Shown one piece after another: positions 9,819 through 22,817 of a stretch of DNA of 64,000 bases. Numbering within the stretch: the stretch's first letter is position 1; every line of letters starts with the position of its first letter. This DNA is from Nitrosospira multiformis (GTDB taxonomy: Bacteria > Pseudomonadota > Gammaproteobacteria > Burkholderiales > Nitrosomonadaceae), in assembly GCF_900103165.1 (NCBI RefSeq), contig NZ_FNKY01000001.1, positions 2,170,001 to 2,234,000 on the forward strand, in the 5' to 3' direction. The notes under the pieces are model-generated. The model was not told the DNA's origin, did not search any database, and saw only the letters and a program-made list of their open reading frames with translations. The translations under genes and the position numbers were made by a program.

Positions 9819-11186
9819 TCAAATTTTGGCGCGCTGCAGGCGGATGTAAATACTCAGCCCTTCGTCCGGTTCGTTTCTTGCCATGATTTCGCCGCCATAT
9901 AGCTGAACAGCGCGTTCGGCGATGGCTAACCCAAGCCCATGCCCACCGCTTAAGCGATCCCTGGCCTCCTCTACCCTTACGAATGGCTCAAACAGATGAG
10001 GCAGCATTTCTTCGGGCGCTCCGGGTCCGTGATCGCGCACCTGAACAATGATGCTGTCCGGATTTCCGGCGTCTTCTCGCATGCTTATTTCAACTGCCGT
10101 ATCCCGTTTTGTGTACTTGATAGCATTGCGAATGACGTTTTCAATTGCACTGTGAAGCAGCATGGCGTTTGCTTTCACCATGACCGGAAAGGCTTTCTGC
10201 AATTTCACTTGGCAGCCCCTTGAATCCGCCTCAAATTGCGCATCCTCAATGAGGTCTTCGAGCATCTCCTGCATGTCAATCCGGTCGATATGTGCCGCGT
10301 CCACCCCCGCTTCCAGACGGGAGAGCGCGAGAAGCTGGCCAATCAACTCATTCAGGCGCTCTATTTCAAGCTCGATGCGGTCAAGCTCTTTTTCAGCCTG
10401 ACCGTTTGATCGCTGCCTGGCAAGACCCAATGCGACCTGCAAGCGTGCGAGCGGGGAACGCAGTTCATGAGAGGCATCACTCAGCAATTGCCGCTGCGCG
10501 CCGAACACTTTCTCGAGCCGTTCGGCCATCTTGTCGAATGCACCTGCCAGATCGGCAATCTCATCCCGGCGGTTGCCCATGGATGGGACGACCCGCTGGG
10601 TAAGGTCTCCGGCCGCAATGTGCTGGGTGGCGCGCCGCAGCCGCTCAAGCGGAAAAGTCAGGTAGCGGCTGAGGAGCAGGCAAATCAGCGCACTTACCAG
10701 TGCTGCGACTGCCATGGGAAGCCCAATGACCCTGGGGCGTTGCAAAATCCTGAGTAAGGTAATGCTCTGAAAGTCAGGGATCATGCGGTAGGCGCTTCCA
10801 TCCGGTAACCGGATAGGCTGCTGGTGAGGCGGCCTTTTTCGTTCTCCGCGTTCCGCATGCTCCCGCCTTCGATCCAGCCTTGCGATGATGTCGGCTGGAA
10901 TCTCCCGTTCAAGCAGATCCTTCCCCGCCTCATCGATGAGGAAAATGGGTATGGCTTCACTGTGGTCCAGGCGATCCAGCCACTCTTTAAGGCCTTCGAT
11001 ACCTTTCTGTTTTGCGACTGTTTGACCCTGATTAAAATATTCCGAGAGACGTGTACGTATGCTGCCGATATCCTGTTGCGTCCGGATATGTTCGAGATAG
11101 CTCGAAGCCGCAAACATGAGCAATGCGGCAAAGATGATCAGCGTGAGCCAGAATGACAGAAATATTTTCCAGAATAGTCTGTGCAC
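9819..11186 (-). CDS. cpxA: CpxA-like sensor histidine kinase
   Basis: A 455-residue inner-membrane kinase. Two membrane segments (about residues 7-28 and 154-174) flank a periplasmic sensor of about 125 residues. A HAMP domain (175-227), HisKA with phospho-acceptor His240 (DASHELRSPLARLQ) and HATPase_c (ENVIRNAIKYT, DHGPG, GHGLGLAI) follow. Context with a CpxR-type regulator, a CpxP/Spy-like protein and a CpxR box supports an envelope-stress role. It starts with GTG only 8 bases inside a MITE-like element end, and no strong ribosome site is seen there, so its translation may have changed. The symbol is by similarity only. Confidence 0.8.
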   Translation of the reverse strand: MHRLFWKIFLSFWLTLIIFAALLMFAASSYLEHIRTQQDIGSIRTRLSEYFNQGQTVAKQKGIEGLKEWLDRLDHSEAIPIFLIDEAGKDLLEREIPADIIARLDRRREHAERGERKRPPHQQPIRLPDGSAYRMIPDFQSITLLRILQRPRVIGLPMAVAALVSALICLLLSRYLTFPLERLRRATQHIAAGDLTQRVVPSMGNRRDEIADLAGAFDKMAERLEKVFGAQRQLLSDASHELRSPLARLQVALGLARQRSNGQAEKELDRIELEIERLNELIGQLLALSRLEAGVDAAHIDRIDMQEMLEDLIEDAQFEADSRGCQVKLQKAFPVMVKANAMLLHSAIENVIRNAIKYTKRDTAVEISMREDAGNPDSIIVQVRDHGPGAPEEMLPHLFEPFVRVEEARDRLSGGHGLGLAIAERAVQLYGGEIMARNEPDEGLSIYIRLQRAKI

Positions 11187-11193
11187 CGTTAGC

Positions 11194-11351
11194 AGCCTGT
11201 CGGACTTGAAGAATTGAAGCGAAAAAGTGACTGGGCGAGCATAGATTTTGACGATTTTGAAGGCCAGTAGTTGTTCTATTGGTCAAGAAAGTGGCTAGGT
11301 ATTGACCGGCCAGATGCTTTTGCAGCCGATTTCCTTTAAGTCCGACAGGCT
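11194..11351. mobile_element. MITE-like element between cpxR and cpxA
   Basis: Terminal inverted repeats AGCCTGTCGGACTTGAAG (11194-11211) and CTTTAAGTCCGACAGGCT (11334-11351) match at 17 of 18 positions. The 158-bp element has no coding capacity and is flanked by TAG at 11190-11192 and 11354-11356, a possible target duplication. It separates the regulator's stop codon from the kinase start. Confidence 0.75.
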
Positions 11352-11352
11352 C

Positions 11353-12051
11353 CTAGGTCCGCGAATAAATGTAACCAACACCGCGGACAGTTTTAATCCG
11401 CTCCCGGCCATCGGATAACGTCCCCAGTTTTTTACGCAGGTTGCTGACGTGCATGTCGAGACTGCGGTCATAGCGGCTCAATTTCCGGCCAAGCGCCCGC
11501 TCGGACAGATTCGCCTTCGACACGACGTTGCCGGCTTCGCGCAGCAATATGTCCAATACGCTGAATTCCGTGCTGGTCATGGATACGGGATTATTACCGC
11601 ACACTACCATACGTGAGCCCATGTGCATGACAAGATCATCCAATGCAATCTGATCGGGCCGCTCACCGCCATTTTGCAATTCGCCTTTTGTCTCCACTCT
11701 TCTCAGGATTGCGCGAATCCGTGCTACCAGTACGCGAGGACTGGATGGTTTGGCCAGATAGTCGTCCGCACCGAGCTCAAGCCCGACAATACTGTCGATG
11801 TCATCTCCGCGTGCCGTCAACATCAGCACGGGGAGTAAGGATCGCACACGCAGTTCACGCAATACGTCGAAACCGCTCCGGTTGGGCATCATGACATCCA
11901 GTATCAGTAAATCATATGGGTTGGCCAGCGCCTTGCGCAGCGCGGCATCGCCATCATGAGCCGCATCGACATCGAAGCCCTCTTTGCGGAGGTAGTCGAC
12001 CAGCATATCGCTCAATTCAATGTCGTCATCTGCCAGTAGTATGCGCGCCAT
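11353..12051 (-). CDS. cpxR: CpxR-like OmpR-family response regulator
   Basis: An OmpR/PhoB-family regulator of 232 residues from the preferred start MARILLADDD at 12051, which has GGAAAA upstream; the frame extends to 12114. The receiver domain has phospho-Asp52 (LILDVMMPNRSG), and the winged helix ends in KTVRGVGYIYSRT. It is paired with the CpxA-like kinase downstream and reads divergently from the CpxP/Spy-like gene. A GTAAA-N5-GTAAA site about 100 bp upstream of its start suggests autoregulation. The stop codon abuts a MITE-like element. Confidence 0.85.
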   Translation of the reverse strand: MARILLADDDIELSDMLVDYLRKEGFDVDAAHDGDAALRKALANPYDLLILDVMMPNRSGFDVLRELRVRSLLPVLMLTARGDDIDSIVGLELGADDYLAKPSSPRVLVARIRAILRRVETKGELQNGGERPDQIALDDLVMHMGSRMVVCGNNPVSMTSTEFSVLDILLREAGNVVSKANLSERALGRKLSRYDRSLDMHVSNLRKKLGTLSDGRERIKTVRGVGYIYSRT

Positions 12052-12148
12052 CCGTTTTCCAAAATCAAGTTGTTGTGAACCATCAGGTGATCCATTTGTT
12101 ATGGATATTGCCAAATTACGGCAAACAAATACAGCGGGCTCTGACTTC

Positions 12149-12163
12149 TTTACACAAATTTAC
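12149..12163 (-). promoter_or_regulatory. CpxR-type box GTAAA-N5-GTAAA
   Basis: TTTAC-ACAAA-TTTAC on the plus strand reads GTAAA-TTTGT-GTAAA on the minus strand, a perfect match to the GTAAA-N5-GTAAA consensus described for enterobacterial CpxR. It lies between the divergent cpxR-like and cpxP/spy-like genes. Confidence 0.75.
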
Positions 12164-12272
12164 GCTTTCATCACCCACCTTGACATGGCTTGATCTTATT
12201 CTTTGCCCATATCGTGTGGGCCGTGGGGGCTCATCGCGATATTCGTAAAAACCTACTAAGAGGAATCAGCTA

Positions 12273-12764
12273 ATGAAAATCATCACGAAAATTTCGCTAA
12301 TCGGTTGCTTATTGGCAAGCAGCATTGCTCTGGCAGGCACACAAGCTGACACGGGCTCCAAAAAAGCATCGCAGGAATGCCACCATGGTGCGCATTCCAG
12401 GATGGGGCAAGGCGCGGACGGCGGGGAACGTTTCCTGAACCGGATGACGGATCGCCTCAAACTGACTACCGAGCAGCGTTCATCGGTGGAAGCCGTTTTG
12501 CAGAAATCGAAATCTCAAATGGCGAATTTAAAAGAAAAAATACAGACAAATCGCAAGGCATTACGTGAACTCAAGCAAAATGGCGGTGGTGACGGTAGCC
12601 AGGTACAAGTGCTGGCACAAGAGCGAGGTAATCTGGTGGCCGCATCAATTATTCAGCGCAGCAAGATACGCAACGAGATTCAGCTGGTGCTGACGGATAC
12701 TCAGCGGGAACAAATGAAACAAATGCGCGAGGAGCATAAGCACGGGCATCACAATAAAGGGTAA
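12273..12764 (+). CDS. CpxP/Spy-like periplasmic LTXXQ protein
   Basis: A 163-residue periplasmic protein. The signal peptide spans about residues 1-22 (CLLASSIALA-GTQ). The mature protein is helical, with the two signature LTxxQ motifs LTTEQ (64-68) and LTDTQ (140-144), and begins and ends in His-rich stretches (ECHHGAHS, HKHGHHNKG) that could bind metal. In the LTXXQ family, CpxP restrains CpxA and Spy acts as a chaperone. Divergent position across a perfect CpxR box argues for membership in this local Cpx-like circuit. A strong hairpin terminator follows. Confidence 0.85.
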   Translation: MKIITKISLIGCLLASSIALAGTQADTGSKKASQECHHGAHSRMGQGADGGERFLNRMTDRLKLTTEQRSSVEAVLQKSKSQMANLKEKIQTNRKALRELKQNGGGDGSQVQVLAQERGNLVAASIIQRSKIRNEIQLVLTDTQREQMKQMREEHKHGHHNKG

Positions 12765-12858: not shown

Positions 12859-13911
12859 TCAGAACTTTAGCGTCCAGCCTGGATTACGTGCCTGCTCTCT
12901 GGTGTAAGCCACTCCATCCACGCGCAGGCCGCGGTCATTCAAAAGGGTAATGATTCCTCCCTTGTTGGGCAGAAAAACCGGTGGAACAAGTTGTATACGC
13001 AGCGCCTCCGCAGCCGCGATAGTCCCTGTCAGGGACATCTTGTTCTTGTCCCGATCCGCGATCATCCAGCCGTCAAGCGAGAGGGTCTCGTTGGTGGTGT
13101 TCAGAAGCGTTACGAACTCCACCTCGGGTGATTCGATGCTATTGACGAGCGCTGCGACAATGCGGATTGCCCCGTCCGGCATTTCCGGACTGGGTTGTCC
13201 CCCCGGGGTGAACGGATTTGTGACAACACTCGCATCTGATGGCGGGCCGCTGGTTTGGGTATGAATTCGATGTCCTGTCCTGTCATCGGTATGCCAGGTC
13301 TGGGACTGGAATTTCAAAAATACCCCAACCCATTGGCTGGTCCGGGGGAAATGAAACAACAGGGCCCCATCCTGGTATACCCCGTCATCGCCGGTAAAGC
13401 GTCCCACATTGCCCTGGTTCATATGGATGTCATGGACACCATTGCCGGGGATAAAGCCGAATATCTTGTCGGTCGTGTTGTTCTCCGGTCCCCAGCGCTC
13501 GCCGAAAGCATAAACATGTGCCTCTTCGTCGGCCATCGCACGTTGCACGAACTGATCGATTTTTTCGTTCAGATCATTGTCCGGACCTGGGACATTGAAG
13601 GGAAGCACGCGCATATTGCGCGGATCGAACAAGTTGCTACGAATAAAGTCCAGCGCCACGCCGCCTGGACGGGATTGCAGCGGAAGCCATCCGAGAGGTT
13701 GATCGATCAACTCCGCCAGAATCGGATGATCGAATCTTGAATCCACAAGAAATTCAAGCTCGGAAGGAGCGAGTTGTGAAGCCACGTTTACCGCGATGCG
13801 ATAATGAGTCGTATCATCGACGATGTGAATCTGGTAGTGCGGATTGGAGCCCGAGCCGAGTTGGCGGTTAACAGGGCGACCCTTTAGTACGCCATAAGAA
13901 TTCAGTGGCAT
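12859..13911 (-). CDS. DUF2278 (YukJ-like) protein with C-terminal lamin-tail domain
   Basis: A 350-residue protein. The N-terminal about 215 residues match the DUF2278/YukJ family (MPLNSYGVLKGRP, then HYQIHI and GVHDIHMNQGN). The C-terminal about 110 residues resemble a lamin-tail (LTD) domain (EVEFVTLLNTTNETLSLDGW). The biochemical role is unknown. GGAGGAG precedes the ATG. It is the last gene of the leftward run that holds two small peptides, a PatG-C-like protein and a subtilisin, so it may belong to that system. The 286-bp gap to the next gene holds a REP-like hairpin. Confidence 0.8.
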   Translation of the reverse strand: MPLNSYGVLKGRPVNRQLGSGSNPHYQIHIVDDTTHYRIAVNVASQLAPSELEFLVDSRFDHPILAELIDQPLGWLPLQSRPGGVALDFIRSNLFDPRNMRVLPFNVPGPDNDLNEKIDQFVQRAMADEEAHVYAFGERWGPENNTTDKIFGFIPGNGVHDIHMNQGNVGRFTGDDGVYQDGALLFHFPRTSQWVGVFLKFQSQTWHTDDRTGHRIHTQTSGPPSDASVVTNPFTPGGQPSPEMPDGAIRIVAALVNSIESPEVEFVTLLNTTNETLSLDGWMIADRDKNKMSLTGTIAAAEALRIQLVPPVFLPNKGGIITLLNDRGLRVDGVAYTREQARNPGWTLKF

Positions 13912-13978
13912 TTTTTGCTCCTCCTATAACGGTGTATTGTTGTGGCTCCTTGAATATGGAGCTTTTTGCCTCGTCCGC

Positions 13979-14008
13979 TTCGTTGGGTTACGGCTTCGCC
14001 TAACCCAA
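13979..14008. repeat. REP-like hairpin, copy 1
   Basis: TTGGGTTA-CGGCTTCGCC-TAACCCAA forms a perfect 8-bp stem (13983-13990 with 14001-14008). The 22 bases 13979-14000 recur exactly, inverted, at 15905-15926. Confidence 0.7.
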
Positions 14009-14197
14009 CCTACGAGCTCTGCTCTTGACCGGCATATTGGTGACCAGCAGTTCGCTGGGCGCACTAGCATCAACGTATCATGCCGGATGACGAATGCGGG
14101 CCGGAATCTTTTGATGCTATACGCAGCCTGATCCAACGTGGGATGCGAACATCCAGCGGAATACGCTATCGTTATTCCGCTCTGCGCAGCTAGGCAA

Positions 14198-14449
14198 TCA
14201 GGAAATCAGTAAGCCGCCGATAGTGAAGGGAGGTAGCCCTCCAAAGAAACGGCATATGAGCTCGCCTCCTCCATTCGCCCTGCATCTCAGGTAGGCGCCC
14301 ACATCCGGATCCGATTGGAAACGAAGTTGCGGTATAACTCCTCCACCCCCTTCCGAGGAAGTTCCGGCAAGAGCGGCCTTCCCGCGATATATGCCCATGG
14401 TTGGAGCAAGCGATGCCTCGGCATTAAACTGTGGTATGTTCATTTTCAA
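14198..14449 (-). CDS. Small peptide with FNAEASL leader-like motif (candidate precursor 2)
   Basis: An 83-residue peptide with a good ribosome site (GAGGAG, 8 bases before ATG). Its N terminus MNIPQFNAEASL parallels the neighbouring 81-residue peptide (MNMPGFTAEASI). The C-terminal half is Gly-rich with two Cys (YLRCRANGGGELICRFFGG). A conserved N terminus with a variable C terminus beside a PatA/PatG-like protease is the layout of a ribosomal peptide precursor, but there is no proof of processing. Confidence 0.6.
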   Translation of the reverse strand: MKMNIPQFNAEASLAPTMGIYRGKAALAGTSSEGGGGVIPQLRFQSDPDVGAYLRCRANGGGELICRFFGGLPPFTIGGLLIS

Positions 14450-14575
14450 ATTCTCCTCATCAAAATCTTAAAGTCCGGATGATCAAAACGCTCTGTTAAT
14501 CAGGGTGCGGAGCAGGATCTCTGACTTCCTCGATATCCCGGTGACCACATGCGAATCCGCATTATGCATACCGGC

Positions 14576-14821
14576 TTAGGATATAGTTGCGCGGGTCAGT
14601 CCCCAGCGAAGAGTGGGACATAAGGTAGCGTCACAGCTACACGCTCCTGACGCATCGTTGCAATCACAAAACAGTGTACATCCCTGATCCACGTCTAGCG
14701 TTCTTATTCGTTGTGGCGTGACCGCGGAGGTGTTGGTCATGGAAACATCCTGCGCACTCATAAGGTAATTCTTACCTGTTTTGTAGATTGATGCTTCCGC
14801 AGTAAAACCTGGCATGTTCAT
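14576..14821 (-). CDS. Small Cys-rich peptide with FTAEASI leader-like motif (candidate precursor 1)
   Basis: An 81-residue peptide preceded by AAGGAG at 7 bases. It starts MNMPGFTAEASIYKTG and carries six Cys in a 22-residue C-terminal cluster (GCTLFCDCNDASGACSCD). It lies 26 bp downstream of the PatG-C-like gene on the same strand. I recall the FTAEASLY-type N terminus from small proteins of many proteobacteria but cannot name a family. It could be a precursor peptide of a modified or proteolytically released product. A metal-binding small protein is the alternative. Confidence 0.65.
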   Translation of the reverse strand: MNMPGFTAEASIYKTGKNYLMSAQDVSMTNTSAVTPQRIRTLDVDQGCTLFCDCNDASGACSCDATLCPTLRWGLTRATIS

Positions 14822-14847
14822 GATATCTCTCCTTTTGGGTGGTTAGG

Positions 14848-15804
14848 TTAATGATCATAGTATGGCGACATCTTGGTGACGAGGAATGGAAACTCCTCGG
14901 TCGCATCGACGCGCACAAAAAACTTCTCGGTAAAATCCGTGTTGCGGTGGGTGTAAGAAAAAATGGCTTTAAAGATTTTCCGGGTGCTGCTTAATGATGA
15001 AGGAATAACTTCCACTCCGGTCATTGAATAGTCACCGCCATATTTCTCCGCCGCCTTGGCATAAATAGCGGGATAGCGCATGGCCAGATAATTCAATACA
15101 CGGTGCTCATCGGTTGCCCCGGCGTTATCAGTCATTTGCATGATCCTGTCGAATAATTCCTCGGCCGCCGGACCGAATTGCTTGTCAGTCAATTTCTCCG
15201 GTTTCGGAATAGCCTTGATCAGTTCGTCGCGTCCGAATGAATAAATCTGATCGAAGACGATAATGGGCACCATCAAGCCGTTGCACATATCCGGCGGGGC
15301 AATGGGACCGCGCAGACCGATAACGACATCGATATCATTGGGTGCGGGCATGGGCCGGATCGCATCCACCAGCATATCGATATCCGCCGGGTCGCGCGGC
15401 TGCAGGAGGTAAGTTTCCAGCCCCTGTATGGTTAGCACCCAGCATAATTGGCGTACCAGATAGCGATTCTGACGTTGGGACAGAACCGCATGAAAAGCCT
15501 GTTGATCGGTTTTACCGGCCGTTTCTGTCCGCCCGGTTGCCTGGGCAAATTCCTTTTCCGCGGCGAGATTCGGGAAACGGGCTTCGACCCGGCCGATGGC
15601 ATAGACATATGAGATCGTCGTGGCATCATTGAGATTCATGCCCCCACCCCCGTTTCCTCCACAACTACTACAGGTTCCCGCTCCCGCTTGCGGTGAGATT
15701 GCCGTGTTTGAACGAACCTCGGAATAAGGCGCGGGTGCTCGCATGTCATTCGTTTTAACCGGCTGGTCCAGCGATTGTTCCATCGTTTCAGTTTGCTCGG
15801 TCAT
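14848..15804 (-). CDS. Stand-alone PatG C-terminal-domain-like protein
   Basis: A 318-residue protein. The start at 15804 is chosen because AAGGAG lies 6 bases upstream; the open frame runs to 16173, but that part covers a REP-like repeat. After a disordered N terminus with CSSCGGNGGGG (about residues 46-56), residues about 62-318 match from memory the C-terminal domain of cyanobactin maturation protein PatG (YVYAIGRVEARFPNLAAEKEF, LCWVLTIQGLETYLL, MCNGLMVPIIVFDQIYSF). In cyanobactin PatG this domain follows a subtilisin macrocyclase; here the protease is a separate upstream gene. The domain's biochemical role is not established. Confidence 0.75.
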   Translation of the reverse strand: MTEQTETMEQSLDQPVKTNDMRAPAPYSEVRSNTAISPQAGAGTCSSCGGNGGGGMNLNDATTISYVYAIGRVEARFPNLAAEKEFAQATGRTETAGKTDQQAFHAVLSQRQNRYLVRQLCWVLTIQGLETYLLQPRDPADIDMLVDAIRPMPAPNDIDVVIGLRGPIAPPDMCNGLMVPIIVFDQIYSFGRDELIKAIPKPEKLTDKQFGPAAEELFDRIMQMTDNAGATDEHRVLNYLAMRYPAIYAKAAEKYGGDYSMTGVEVIPSSLSSTRKIFKAIFSYTHRNTDFTEKFFVRVDATEEFPFLVTKMSPYYDH

Positions 15805-15904
15805 GTTGCGCTCCTTGAGTATGAGGTTATTCATTTCGTCCACTTCGCCTGCCCTGCTGGTTTGTGCTATGCAACCTTCGTATCCGGAACTCGTAAGCTC
15901 GCTA

Positions 15905-15926
15905 GGCGAAGCCGTAACCCAACGAA
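15905..15926. repeat. REP-like repeat, copy 2 (inverted)
   Basis: The 22 bases GGCGAAGCCGTAACCCAACG+AA are the exact reverse complement of 13979-14000. This copy lies in the gap between the 78-residue gene and the PatG-C-like gene. Together the copies bracket the PatG-C-like gene and both small peptides. Confidence 0.65.
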
Positions 15927-15967
15927 CCGGCATGCGATAAAGCTGCTGGCCCAACCTGCGAGACTTC

Positions 15968-16204
15968 TTACCTCGACCGCCGAGGGGTGAAAACCAGCCA
16001 GCGATTGAGCTTGGCTGCCCGGCGTTCGCAGTCTCCGCAAGGCTGGATTCCAAGATAGGAACTCGTTCGCTTGATTGCATCACCCAAGCCGATCTCATCG
16101 CCGGTGATAAATCCAGGTAGATGTACCCGATGGGGTTGTTGCCCATTTTTATCAGGCACGCTGTTCGCATCATCCGCTTTGTTCACTTTGCTTGCCCCGG
16201 TCAT
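15968..16204 (-). CDS. 78-residue PCGxC small protein
   Basis: Starts MTGASKVNKADDANS at 16204, where its ATG overlaps the subtilisin's TGA stop (ATGA), a sign of translational coupling. The C-terminal half reads GLGDAIKRTSSYLGIQPCGD, then CERRAAKLNRW, with Cys pairs (PCGDC) that recall small phage-like and peptide-cluster proteins I have seen but cannot name. There is no signal peptide. The open frame extends upstream inside the subtilisin gene, but that part is a shadow. It may be a cofactor or substrate of the protease. Confidence 0.65.
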   Translation of the reverse strand: MTGASKVNKADDANSVPDKNGQQPHRVHLPGFITGDEIGLGDAIKRTSSYLGIQPCGDCERRAAKLNRWLVFTPRRSR

Positions 16205-17157
16205 GCTATTCGCCTTCTTGCATTGAGTGTCAGCAGGGTTTGCCAGGCTGTGTCTGCGTCCAGCAATGGAGGAACGACCGAAGCTCGCCGTGATCCTGTT
16301 GTGAAGGCTTGCGTGATAGCGAGTTTGATTTGTGCGTCGGTTGCGGCGGGAAATTCCGACCATAGCAGTGCAATGGTCCCGGTGACAAAAGGCACCGCAA
16401 CGCTCGTACCACCAAGCGTGACTGATTGGCCGTCAGCGTTCAGACTGGTAATGTTGTCACCCGGCGCGCTCAACCCTCGCGTGCCTATCGAACTGCCCAG
16501 ATTCGATTCGTTTATAGGTCGGCCGCGTAAATCACAGGCCACGACCGGAATGACCCACGGGTGACGGGTAATGGCGGAACTTCCGAGCGTGCCTTGGTTG
16601 CCCGCTGCCGCAACGATCAGCACGCCGCGCCTGAGGGCCAGATTGAGTGCCTCTTCCAGGGCATGCTCCCCCTTGGTGGAAGGCTGTGCCAGGGCGAGGC
16701 TCAGGTTAACGATGCGTGCGCCTGCACCAATGCATTCAAGGATTGCCGCTGCCAGTTCCTGAGGCGTCGAGCTGGGCATGTGTTCGCGCCCGGCGGTTTT
16801 TTCGGTAAAAATGGGACGTATGAGGAGGGTACAGCCGGGACAAATGGCGGGCGCAGGGGAATTCCGTTTCGCAGATAAGATCCCGGCTATAAAGGTTCCA
16901 TGCAGGCATGCTGCGCTATTGGCCTGTGTGCAGGCTGCCCCATTGTTTCCGGGAATTTCCCGGAGGTTCTCGCTTGCCAGATCAGCGTGCCGGGTAAGGA
17001 CAGGGCCATCGATGAGTCCAATCCTGATGTCAGGAATACCGCTGGTGCGTTCCATCAATGCCGAGAGCCTGACCAACTCCGTAGGAAGCATAGCGCGCGT
17101 CACCCCTTGAGCCCTTGATGGCAGATTGCCGGAAAGCCTTGCATTGGTCAATGCCAA
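16201..17157 (-). CDS. PatA/PatG-like subtilisin (S8) protease
   Basis: A 318-residue serine protease. The catalytic triad is visible: Asp50 in IGLIDGPV, His86 in CLHGTFIAGIL and Ser252 in GGTSVAVPFVTG, with oxyanion Asn187 in AAAGNQG. The DGPV signature and short N terminus fit the cyanobactin PatA/PatG protease group. There is no signal peptide, so it probably acts in the cytoplasm, as expected for precursor processing. The start is a TTG at 17157; Met23 is an alternative. Four Cys surround the catalytic His (AACTQANSAACLHG, ICPGC), possibly disulfides or metal ligands. Confidence 0.85.
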   Translation of the reverse strand: MALTNARLSGNLPSRAQGVTRAMLPTELVRLSALMERTSGIPDIRIGLIDGPVLTRHADLASENLREIPGNNGAACTQANSAACLHGTFIAGILSAKRNSPAPAICPGCTLLIRPIFTEKTAGREHMPSSTPQELAAAILECIGAGARIVNLSLALAQPSTKGEHALEEALNLALRRGVLIVAAAGNQGTLGSSAITRHPWVIPVVACDLRGRPINESNLGSSIGTRGLSAPGDNITSLNADGQSVTLGGTSVAVPFVTGTIALLWSEFPAATDAQIKLAITQAFTTGSRRASVVPPLLDADTAWQTLLTLNARRRIA

Positions 17158-19142: not shown

Positions 19143-22100
19143 TCACGACCGGCCGACTTCGAACGAAAATCGCGCGACACGCTTCGTCCAGGGCGCAAGT
19201 ACCGCAAGCCTGGTATCGGCAGGTATCTCCTCATCGTGCGTCTCCAGCCACTCGCGTAGGCGTTGCCAGCCGGGTGCGTCCTCAAGCCAGGCTTGATCCA
19301 TCTCCTTCATGAGCCAACCGATATCGCGCGGAGCCTCATTTAGGGGTGCGGGACCCGCTCCAGTTTCCACCGTCGCAAAGAAATTGCGTGCCAGCATGGG
19401 CGTGCCGGTATCGACCGCGAGAAGCAGCAACACGGCCTGATAGTGGCCCAGCGGATTGCCCGGCCGCGGGAATGAGCGTTCCTCCTGCGGCCCGAGCCCC
19501 GCCTTGATCAACCGGTACACATTAACGAACCGCTTGAGCGCACGCGGCGAGCGGCCGAGTACCGGCGCAAGCTTTGTCATGAAATCAAGTTCGGCGGGAA
19601 TGATTTCGAGGCTCTCGAACGTCGGGTAGACGGGTTGTTGAGCGGTGGGAATCGTGGTGGCGCCAACATTGCTCCCGGCGGATGCGGAGCCAGCCGAAGC
19701 AGTTTGAGGCACCTGCTGCTGTGCTGTTTGCGCCGCCGCCGGTGCGCTTGCCCCGGATATTGGCTGCTGCGGTGTGATCGGAATCCCTGAAGACATGTCG
19801 GCGCCCGCTACGGTCGTTATTATCTTGCCAGCTGCTTTTTCCTGCTCCCCCTCTTTCGAGTCTTGATCCGGGTGCTTCACGCTCGTTCGCAGCAGCCCGC
19901 GCACCATGCGGTCACAAGCGGCGGCATCCATGGGTCTCAGCCAGAATGGAATCTGGAAAATCTTCTCGAGGTAATCGTTGGGCGTCGCCGAGCCGACGAG
20001 CAACCCCGTGTCACTTTCGTCGTTTACCGGCCTGTTGTCGACGTGAAGCAATTCGCGATAACGTGTCTGCAACGAGCGCTTGATCCAGCGCGCATCCACC
20101 CCGACGACAACGACAAAAAGCGGGAATGCCAGTAGCAGATGCACCGCTTGCAATACTTCCACCACCTTGTTTGGCGGACAGCGGTCGAGATCGTCGATAT
20201 AAAGCACAATGCGATTGATGCGCTTGTCCTTGTCTTTCTCCTCTTCAGCCAGGCTCGCATACCGCTTTTGGCCATCGGTACGGGGTGGCTCGAACGGGTC
20301 TTCGGGCGATAGCGACCAATTTTCCTCTTCGATCAGCCCGGAAAGTTTCTCGAAATCGTCGCGTACCAGCGCGAGCACGCCGAGGTGCTTGCGATAGTCG
20401 CTGCTTGCGGCGCGGTCGGTGATGAAATTGGCAAGCAGGCGGCCGGCCGTCGCAGCCTTGAGCTCGGCGTCGGCGGCGGCCTCGCGCGCCTTCGCTTCCG
20501 CATGCCTCTGCAGCGCAGAATCGAGAGCCGCTGTCAGCTCGCGCAGCCTTTGCTCGGCCTGTGTGACCTTCTGCACATGCGTGGCAGTCTCCTTCGCCAT
20601 CTCCTCGTCAAACTTCTTCTGCGCGGTCTCTGCTTCATCGAGCCGTTGCGACATCCACTGGGCCTGTTGCTTGAGCCAGGGAACACCTGACGCGATCAAC
20701 GTCGCCAAACCGGTGGCGTAGGCGTAGATGTCGGTAACGCTCGATCCCAGCATCTGCAATACAAGGCGCACAACAATCGCCACGACCGGCGCCCCGAGAA
20801 GGCTAAAGAGTAGCCAGTTGAACCGGCGATTCCGATCCTTCGCATGCATGAGCGGGGCGAGAAATCGTTGTCCGCGGCCGAGCACGCCATGGATCTGCCG
20901 CAGCGCGCCCTCGAGCTCCACGGCGCTCCGGCCGACTGCCCCGAGATCAAGTTGTTCCAGCGCATTGACGACCGGCTGGTGGGCGCCGCTCAGCACAAAA
21001 TCTTTCCGTACGTGTTCAGCATTCAGTTTGGCCAGTTCTTCCGTTTTTTCGTTGAGACTCTTCTGCGCGGCGTCCAGAGTCACCTTCGCGGCAGTCGCCG
21101 CCGCTTTCGCACTGTCGGCGGCGTTGCTTGTTGCCTGCGAGAGCGCCTTCTCCTCGGCAAGCTTTTTGATCAGCTCCTCCTGCAATGCCCGGCTGATTCT
21201 TGGGTCTTTCTTCACATACAGGTTGTCGAGGATGTGCTCGACGAGGCTCGCCCAGAGGTTGCCTTCGACATAGTGCCAGGCGTTGAACTCGATCTGTACG
21301 ATGTTTTTATAAATGGGCAGGTCGCGCTGCATCCGGTTCGCCGTGCGCGCTTCCATCGCCAGGCTGTCGATAGCCGCTCGCAACTGGCGCATGAAGAACG
21401 TCTTGCCGGAGCCCCACTCGCCGAACAAGCCGATGGAGAGCGGCGGCACGACGGTTCGCGCGGCAATCAGCGCGGCGAGCGCGCGCACATCATTCTGGAT
21501 ATCCAGCAGATCATCGCCACCCACGCGATCGGCGATGAAGCCGCTGAAACGGCGTACCGCCGATCGCGTACCGATGAGCAGTGCCTCCCAGGCGTCATCG
21601 TCATCCCCATGGCCGCGCAACCACTCGCATAGCGCCTCACGCACGAATACGGGGTCGAGCCCCATCTCGGCGAGACGGTTGAGCGCGCCTGAGCGCTCTT
21701 TTGTTGTATCACTGTGCAATAGGGCTGCCAGGAGATGGCGTGCATGAATTTCCGGATCGTGTGCCGTGCGCTGGGCGATGTCGCGCGACCGTTCCAGCGC
21801 CGCGAACAGGTAGCCTGTCATCTCGACGGGAAGACTGCGAACCGGACTTTCCGATCGTACTTGCAGACCTCGCGATCCGCGTTTTCTGAAATAGCGGTCC
21901 CGTATTGCCTCATACTCTTTTGTGTGCTTGTCGACCAGCTCGCGCAGGAAATGTGCTGCCCATGGGCCTCCCGTATCGGTGGCTTCGGCGATCGCGAGTA
22001 GCATGAAGCTGGTGGTCACGGCAAGCGGCGGTGTTACGCCCGATGCCATCTCTGCTGCCCGATTCATCAAAAATGGAATTGAGCTCGCGGTCTTGAACTC

Positions 22101-22817
22101 GGAGAGCCGTGTCAGCGGTACGGTCCCGGCGTCGGGTGGGGCGGTTGATTCCGGTGGTTGAAGAGCCGCATCGGCTAATGTTTTCCGTTCAGTCTCGCGT
22201 TCGCGTGTTTCATCGCCATTACCGATATTCGAACTACTCCAGCCTTGGGCGCGTGCTATATTTTTTAATCGGGAATCAATAGCATAGCGTAGTTGATTTA
22301 ACGCGTTCCAATAGAAATCTTCCGCTCCACTTTCTCTGGGTGTGGGATAGCCGGACAAGAGGGGTGCAATCGCGTTCGGCGGTTTATACCAGAACTTCGC
22401 GTCGATCTGGTGCTTGCGAATGCGATCAATATTCGGGGGAACGCCGGTCAACTCATCGTAGGGAAAAATCTCCACCACGAAAACATCGGCGGGTTTCTCA
22501 GGATCATTCGAGTGAGCCTGAATGAAATACTCCAGTTCTTTTCCGCACCATTCGGAATCGATATAATTTTGCGAGAGGATCAATACCAGTAATTTGCTGT
22601 TTTCAACTTTTTTGATCAGATCATCGCTAAATACATCGCCCGACTTGAGATGGTGGTCAATGAAGAGGTTTTTCTTAAGGACGTTGGGACCGATATTCAG
22701 ATAATGGGCAAATGAAGTCACCCAGCCAGCCTGCGCTGAGTCCGGAACTTCGTTATCCGCATCAGCATAGCTAATAAAAACATCATAGCCTTGATCTATA
22801 GACACATGCTCTCCCAA
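19143..22817 (-). CDS. TIR - ClpN-like - KAP P-loop NTPase membrane protein
   Basis: A 1224-residue multidomain protein. A TIR domain spans about residues 9-150 (YDVFISYADADNE); Glu94 in SEWCGKEL sits where TIR NADases have their catalytic Glu. A Clp-N-like helical segment follows at about 345-400 (IHARHLLAALLHS). A KAP-type NTPase has Walker A about 465-472 (GEWGSGKT) and Walker B about 875 (IVLYIDDLDRCPP). Two membrane helices and flanking coiled coils are inserted at about 560-790, as typical for KAP NTPases. The layout suggests a membrane-anchored sensor-effector, possibly depleting NAD in defence or cell death. Cargo and trigger are unknown. Confidence 0.88.
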   Translation of the reverse strand: MGEHVSIDQGYDVFISYADADNEVPDSAQAGWVTSFAHYLNIGPNVLKKNLFIDHHLKSGDVFSDDLIKKVENSKLLVLILSQNYIDSEWCGKELEYFIQAHSNDPEKPADVFVVEIFPYDELTGVPPNIDRIRKHQIDAKFWYKPPNAIAPLLSGYPTPRESGAEDFYWNALNQLRYAIDSRLKNIARAQGWSSSNIGNGDETRERETERKTLADAALQPPESTAPPDAGTVPLTRLSEFKTASSIPFLMNRAAEMASGVTPPLAVTTSFMLLAIAEATDTGGPWAAHFLRELVDKHTKEYEAIRDRYFRKRGSRGLQVRSESPVRSLPVEMTGYLFAALERSRDIAQRTAHDPEIHARHLLAALLHSDTTKERSGALNRLAEMGLDPVFVREALCEWLRGHGDDDDAWEALLIGTRSAVRRFSGFIADRVGGDDLLDIQNDVRALAALIAARTVVPPLSIGLFGEWGSGKTFFMRQLRAAIDSLAMEARTANRMQRDLPIYKNIVQIEFNAWHYVEGNLWASLVEHILDNLYVKKDPRISRALQEELIKKLAEEKALSQATSNAADSAKAAATAAKVTLDAAQKSLNEKTEELAKLNAEHVRKDFVLSGAHQPVVNALEQLDLGAVGRSAVELEGALRQIHGVLGRGQRFLAPLMHAKDRNRRFNWLLFSLLGAPVVAIVVRLVLQMLGSSVTDIYAYATGLATLIASGVPWLKQQAQWMSQRLDEAETAQKKFDEEMAKETATHVQKVTQAEQRLRELTAALDSALQRHAEAKAREAAADAELKAATAGRLLANFITDRAASSDYRKHLGVLALVRDDFEKLSGLIEEENWSLSPEDPFEPPRTDGQKRYASLAEEEKDKDKRINRIVLYIDDLDRCPPNKVVEVLQAVHLLLAFPLFVVVVGVDARWIKRSLQTRYRELLHVDNRPVNDESDTGLLVGSATPNDYLEKIFQIPFWLRPMDAAACDRMVRGLLRTSVKHPDQDSKEGEQEKAAGKIITTVAGADMSSGIPITPQQPISGASAPAAAQTAQQQVPQTASAGSASAGSNVGATTIPTAQQPVYPTFESLEIIPAELDFMTKLAPVLGRSPRALKRFVNVYRLIKAGLGPQEERSFPRPGNPLGHYQAVLLLLAVDTGTPMLARNFFATVETGAGPAPLNEAPRDIGWLMKEMDQAWLEDAPGWQRLREWLETHDEEIPADTRLAVLAPWTKRVARFSFEVGRS

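Follow-up and report, generated by a model that had tools for sequence, protein, structure and literature searches.

A split PatA-type protease and PatG-DUF module with predicted cysteine-paired precursor peptides in Nitrosospira multiformis and distant genomes

A 64,000-nucleotide stretch of the Nitrosospira multiformis genome (contig NZ_FNKY01000001.1, positions 2,170,001 to 2,234,000; hereafter the window, in whose own numbering all positions are given) carries on its minus strand a run of genes that appears to constitute a small system for the maturation of ribosomally made peptides. Read leftward, the run contains a PatA-type S8 serine protease (16201..17091), a 78-amino-acid (aa) protein with a CxxC motif (15968..16204; HRVHLPGF..IGLGD..PCGDC..RA..LNRW), whose ATG overlaps the protease stop codon, a 318-aa stand-alone protein (14848..15804) composed of the PatG_D and PatG_C domains, referred to here as the PatG-DUF protein (DUF, domain of unknown function), and two peptides of 81 aa each (14576..14821 and 14198..14443), which share F-x-A-E-A-S-(I/L). 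A purine-rich stretch lies upstream of every gene in this operon. The leftward run, the 78-residue PCGxC protein and the two small peptides had all been reported in a first-pass annotation of the sequence, and we found each of them in place. That annotation went on to suggest an undescribed, protease-only peptide release system, and this is largely supported by what follows, with the corrections that the DUF2278 protein counted among its genes is not part of the system and that the CxxC protein belongs to the conserved core.

The protease matches Peptidase_S8 (PF00082) of Pfam with E = 1.2e-23, and its closest solved structures are the cyanobactin N-terminal proteases (4h6w, E = 5.4e-30; 4h6v and 3zxx, 3.4e-28), with subtilisin structures ranking lower in the PDB search (1.5e-15). 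Its match to the PatA/PatG protease model, TIGR03895 (E = 6.8e-32), is partial and, at 111 bits, falls below the cut-off of 421; a mycosin model scores slightly higher, at 120.7 bits, likewise below its own cut-off. We consider the ATG at 17091, which would give a protein of 296 aa, the more likely start over the earlier TTG at 17157 because of the N termini of the relatives and the upstream sequence, and no signal peptide is apparent by eye in the N terminus. Among 77 aligned proteases of the family, the window protease included, the catalytic D, H, N and S are present in 76, 76, 75 and 77 sequences, respectively, one of the sequences being without its first part. The median length, 292 aa, is the size of PatA-type chains (282-307 aa), as opposed to PatG macrocyclase chains (357-360 aa). 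Length bears on whether the pathway, as in cyanobactin biosynthesis, also closes the core head to tail by S8 transpeptidation: a protease of the PatA/PatG family accompanied by a PatG-DUF protein would be expected in such a case, whereas the single protease of PatA size, the lack of any C-terminal follower motif recognisable by eye in the peptides and the single PatG_C domain in the whole window genome make macrocyclisation very improbable.

Similarity of the 318-aa protein to the PatG C-terminal region, which the first-pass annotation had put forward, is strong, with PatG_D (PF18047) matched at E = 3.7e-37 and PatG_C (PF18065) at E = 3.8e-30, both above the Pfam cut-offs, and the protein belongs with the PatG DUF by sequence as well as by predicted fold, as compared with 4uvq; its residues 1-61 are modelled with low confidence. 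According to passages of PMC4259220, the structure of the PatG C-terminal domain is solved and its function is not known. The CxxC protein matches no entry in the family libraries searched (Pfam and NCBIfam), nor any PDB chain. Its residues L29, P30, F32, G39, G41, C56, C59 and R62 are invariant (60 and 56 aligned sequences), and in the predicted model (mean predicted local distance difference test score, pLDDT, 77) the CxxC motif sits at the start of a helix. A CxxC at the start of a helix is also a feature of thiol-disulfide enzymes, and the modelled position may thus offer a hint of a thiol-disulfide role.

The distribution of the module was surveyed with a bait profile built from seven PatG-DUF proteins, which found 115 relatives in the genome collection; the best 80 loci, together with the window locus, plasmid loci and loci of further genomes, made 88 loci, 86 of them distinct. 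Sorted from record titles, many of which denote metagenome bins, the 86 loci fall into 11 phylum-level groups: Pseudomonadota (30), Acidobacteriota (18), Actinomycetota (15), Cyanobacteria (4), archaea (4), Nitrospirota (3), 'Deltaproteobacteria' (3), Planctomycetota (3), Chloroflexota (3), Bacteroidota (2) and Hydrogenedentota (1). An S8 protease is present in 80 of the 86, in 76 of them on the same strand and no more than 1.5 kb upstream of the PatG-DUF gene, and the CxxC protein was found by hidden Markov model (HMM) search in 67. The order S8-CxxC-PatG-DUF is kept in 61 of the 65 loci having all three genes, and the CxxC protein is a member of the conserved core module. Protein distances of the protease and the PatG-DUF protein correlate strongly (Mantel r = 0.82, 76 loci; the largest value in 1000 permutations was 0.27). 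The notion that unrelated small open reading frames (ORFs) happen to lie beside a stray protease, a chance or purely local arrangement, could draw on the rarity of PatG_C, found in 5 of 274, 2 of 398 and 1 of 190 genomes, with the split-form profile found in 2 of 257, the centre genome being counted every time. It is already contradicted, and hardly credible, given that order, strand, leader and core families are conserved over the 11 groups: the arrangement in the window is not chance because the same gene order recurs in distant genomes.

Genes of this PatG-DUF type also occur on plasmids of Mesorhizobium, Sinorhizobium and Streptomyces (L011, L012, L013 and L014), with a Tn3-family transposase near L013 and no S8 protease found in L014. 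The plasmid location and this transposase are the reasons for which we think that the module probably moves between hosts. A Photobacterium plasmid (L015) carries a diverged PatG-DUF relative (21.6% identity), and the next frames resemble, by eye, a second copy.

The two peptides of the window match the leader HMM with E = 2.3e-13 (peptide 1) and 9.5e-11 (peptide 2) in a search of the window genome, and neither is named by any family at the Pfam and NCBIfam cut-offs. Across the 86 loci the leader HMM gave 181 hits, spread over 72 loci with up to 11 in each; 180 of the hits share the strand of the module and 170 lie downstream of the DUF gene. Such within-locus counts are not independent, because the leader HMMs had the same loci as their training set. 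The consensus drawn from 120 peptides collected by a stricter pattern is M-N-(M/I/L)-P-G-F-T-A-E-A-S-L-Y, in which P and F, and for the most part A and E as well, were set by the collecting pattern. For specificity, and not for sensitivity, the class sample of 274 genomes provides an independent test, three of its four leader-bearing genomes having supplied rows of the leader alignment. Five of these genomes have PatG_C, and leader peptides (E <= 1e-6) were found in four of the five and in no other genome, each time on the same contig as PatG_C (hypergeometric probability 2e-8); in one of the four, G028, the contig begins inside PatG_C and only the end of the domain is present. The fifth PatG_C genome, G032, is of a fused type described below. 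Rather than occurring mostly without the protease, an outcome that would have spoken against the first-pass annotation, the peptides were thus confined in this sample to genomes with PatG_C, and none was found in its absence.

An encoded precursor, a conserved leader, a variable core and a dedicated adjoining protease are all found here, as in pathways for ribosomally synthesized and post-translationally modified peptides (RiPPs). The variable parts form families of their own, and 15 of 23 core clusters span more than one phylum-level group, the largest cluster being unreliable. The core family of peptide 1 is common to five other ammonia-oxidiser loci; that of peptide 2 is nearly identical in relatives from Nitrosospira, Nitrosomonas, Nitrotoga and Nitrospira and occurs also in one gammaproteobacterial locus; and another core is common to a gammaproteobacterial locus, Nitrospira, an Acidobacteriota bin and a Methanoperedens bin. 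The cysteine-rich part of peptide 1 gives a sub-threshold match (19.8 bits, cut-off 27) to PF17492, Delta Ctenitoxins, a family of cysteine-rich spider peptides, a resemblance that is probably one of cysteine spacing only.

Where the leader ends is indicated by a second motif and by the cysteines. V/I/L-x-P-Q/A occurs in 81 of the 120 peptides, against a mean of 10.7 and a maximum of 19 in 200 shuffles, and the wider form V/I/L/M-x-P-(Q/A/S) in 94, ending a median of 31 residues past the conserved Phe; in these 94 peptides, cysteine makes up 0.4% of the residues before the end of the wider motif and 11.5% after it. Counted after the motif, 128 of 135 full-length peptides have an even number of cysteines, 5 an odd number and 2 none. 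Random placement at matched cysteine frequency gave 51% even, the highest of 500 runs reaching 61%; among the remaining ORFs of 45-130 aa in these loci that encode two or more cysteines, 2293 of 3711 (62%) are even. When the same 135 peptides are counted from AEAS instead, 116 are even, 18 odd and 1 without cysteine. An alternative is cleavage directly after F-x-A-E-A-S, with everything from the L/I onward being product. AEAS does resemble, in its (L/V)-E-A-S form, the published PatA consensus, PatA-type enzymes being described in passages of PMC10885120 as cutting after G(L/V)E(A/P)S, and E at F+3 (116 of 120) and S at F+5 (104 of 120) are well kept, these being residues that the collecting pattern includes. 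Cleavage at this point would, however, carry into the product both the V-x-P motif and the Tyr found at F+13 in 97 of 120 peptides, and it does not fit the 13 peptides, from 13 loci of seven groups, with one extra cysteine between AEAS and V-x-P: from AEAS all 13 are odd, whereas after the motif 12 are even, none is odd and one has no cysteine. We therefore place the end of the leader at V-x-P-(Q/A/S) and regard cleavage after AEAS as quite unlikely. The extra cysteine of one peptide (L029) lies six residues before the motif end and the first core cysteine of another (L052) is the second residue after it; if the site is shared, it would because of these positions lie between the two points, that is, at V-x-P-(Q/A/S). 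On this sequence evidence, FxAEAS probably serves for recognition of the leader and not for cleavage, the boundary lying some 20-25 residues further on.

For the window, the boundary so placed would give peptide 1 a leader (14711-14821) ending in VTPQ and a predicted core of 44 aa with six cysteines (coding 14579-14710), and peptide 2 a leader (14327-14443) ending in VIPQ and a predicted core of 42 aa with two (coding 14201-14326). Among 139 nonredundant cores, from peptides cut at 170 aa, six is the commonest number of cysteines (47 cores), followed by four, eight and two (27, 16 and 9). The parity leads us to predict that the core cysteines are paired in the products. One might instead take the cores for metal-binding peptides of metallothionein- or zinc-ribbon-like kind, the even counts for metal sites and the CxxC protein for a metal chaperone. 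The cysteine richness, CxxxC and CC as the commonest spacings, the CxxC of the helper, the apparent lack of a signal peptide and the many module hosts that are ammonia or methane oxidisers would all suit this explanation; six cysteines as the commonest number suits pairs better than four-ligand sites, and the cores are very varied, so that we hold metal binding to be unlikely.

We propose a self-contained module in which small precursors, often encoded in tandem, share a leader with a median length of about 36 residues, whose P-G-F-T-A-E-A-S-L-Y motif would dock onto the PatG-DUF protein and/or the protease; the PatA-type S8 protease, as the putative cutter, would cleave after V-x-P-(Q/A/S), give or take the exact bond, to free a core of about 47 residues (median), and the core cysteines would pair up, disulfides being the simplest form of such links. 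Docking and pairing may fall to the PatG-DUF and CxxC proteins, and the CxxC protein may help to oxidise or isomerise the core cysteines. For the two window precursors, this would mean a 44-mer with three pairs and a 42-mer with one pair. The gene set and its order, the leader, the intact catalytic residues, the cysteine parity and its boundary and the absence of YcaO are computational results, whereas the protease as cutter, the exact bond, the disulfides, export, the biological function and what the PatG-DUF and CxxC proteins do are inferred; as a whole we give this proposal a probability of roughly 70%.

Several observations weigh against it. The even counts would also fit metal clusters or other pairwise links, and disulfides in the cytoplasm are unusual. 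Neither the clustering of neighbouring genes nor the Pfam scan described below (25 of 194 families inspected) revealed a recurring exporter. No CxxC protein was found in 19 of the 86 loci and no protease in 6, and two actinobacterial proteases (L076 and L080) have Asp at the active-site Asn position. Besides the interdependence of the leader counts, 14 of the 86 loci have no leader-HMM match, several of which show look-alike leaders and two of which stop at a contig edge, and 42 of 177 peptides have no V-x-P match. G940, a genome outside the training set, has four leader peptides, two of which match the motif and have cores with 6 and 8 cysteines; of the other two, one has no match and one has only LCPQ within its cysteine-rich part, with five cysteines before it and none after, and in these two exceptions we would read the cleavage site as V-x-M-A. 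Among the four archaeal loci, protease and leader peptides occur together only in L037, a Methanoperedens bin; L074 has leaders and no protease in the stretch at hand, and L070 and L087 have neither. YcaO is encoded somewhere in 16 of 36 genomes. Lastly, passages of PMC4663559 state that the cyanobactin PatG DUF did not bind linear substrates.

Comparison with the cyanobactin pathway of the patellamide type places the module. Shared are the PatA-type S8 protease, the PatG-DUF fold (4uvq), leader-core precursors and several precursor genes, and the predicted V-x-P-(Q/A/S) site lies in the same register as the cyanobactin V-E-P-S site. In cyanobactin clusters, both the A and the G protease carry a DUF, whereas here there is one S8 protease, with no macrocyclase-sized enzyme, and the DUF is on a gene of its own; the leader is different, YcaO is absent, the cores are longer, cysteine-rich and of even cysteine count, and the spread is over many phyla, cyanobactin clusters having been known only in cyanobacteria according to passages of a 2015 review (PMC4663559). 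YcaO is lacking from the whole window genome, as the first-pass annotation had said of the locus, from 20 of 36 genomes in all and from five of five more (two of them fused-type), which makes 25 of 41, or 24 of 40 PatG-DUF genomes when the window genome is set aside. By itself this absence is no mark of novelty, because the acy and pag cyanobactin clusters are also without heterocyclase (PMC4663559, in the passages concerned); those clusters keep the A and G proteases, and their products are small macrocycles, some prenylated or geranylated. In comparison with cyanobactins, the sequences suggest that the novelty lies in a split module occurring outside cyanobactins, in the leader that goes with it and in cores predicted to be cysteine-paired.

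Two genomes (G032/L008 and G590/L100) carry a fused PatA-PatG-DUF as a single polypeptide, in contrast to the split module, with another leader type, M-N-L-P-I-Q.... They share with the module the same domains, a genome without YcaO and cysteine-even cores after V/M/L-x-P-S: four downstream peptides have MTPS, VEPS, LAPS and VEPS followed by 6, 6, 8 and 8 cysteines, with none before, the peptides having been found with a pattern that requires such a motif close before a cysteine. The CxxC protein gave no hit in G032, the one of the two that was searched for it. The fused loci seem intermediate, linking the cyanobactin site with the V-x-P-(Q/A/S) site.

Clustering of 622 neighbouring ORFs from the 86 loci revealed no further enzyme that accompanies the module in many of them: the most frequent, a short-chain dehydrogenase, is present in seven loci. 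A Gly/Cys-rich, precursor-like group occurs in 20. When 128 neighbours, one per cluster, were scanned against Pfam, no family was found in more than two (25 of 194 families inspected). In the window, the next gene of the run (12859..13911, minus strand) encodes a protein described in the first-pass annotation as DUF2278 with a lamin tail; the DUF2278 part is sound (PF10042, E = 3.7e-79), and the lamin-tail match is weak, 24.9 bits against a Pfam cut-off of 34.3. Within the sequence covered around every locus, the DUF2278 family occurs in only 4 of the 86, and the protein is a neighbour or accessory outside the conserved module. A 28-nucleotide inverted repeat (13975-14002 and 15903-15930, 96% complementary, 1900 nucleotides between the arms) brackets the PatG-DUF and peptide genes and could be a repeat element or a trace left by a mobile cassette. 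Elsewhere in the window, a sensor kinase and response regulator lie beside an LTXXQ (Spy/CpxP-like) protein (9819-12764), and a 1224-aa protein with TIR and KAP P-loop NTPase domains (19143-22817, minus strand), with weak PADLOC matches such as QatA (E = 3.2e-13), is a possible defence gene.

All components but the CxxC protein fall into known families; what seems to be new is the system as a whole, with its leader and products. Searches of the open-access literature gave no description of the FTAEAS leader, the CxxC protein or a PatA/PatG-DUF module in split form, and the system, which occurs in many groups of bacteria and in at least one assembly from archaea, is apparently undescribed so far. 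The module predicts a large family of cysteine-paired peptides, with core families that cross phyla, in hosts that include nitrifiers, methanotrophs, Acidobacteriota and actinomycetes. More tentatively, and with more doubt than confidence on our part, these peptides might form a widespread new ribosomal class made in the cytosol, in which the PatG-DUF and CxxC proteins jointly bind the leader, pair the cysteines and pass the chain to the protease. If true, the PatG DUF would gain its first function, in core folding or oxidation instead of ring closure. Here it is a separate conserved gene beside a protease, a tiny helper and the likely substrates, which makes its role testable gene by gene.

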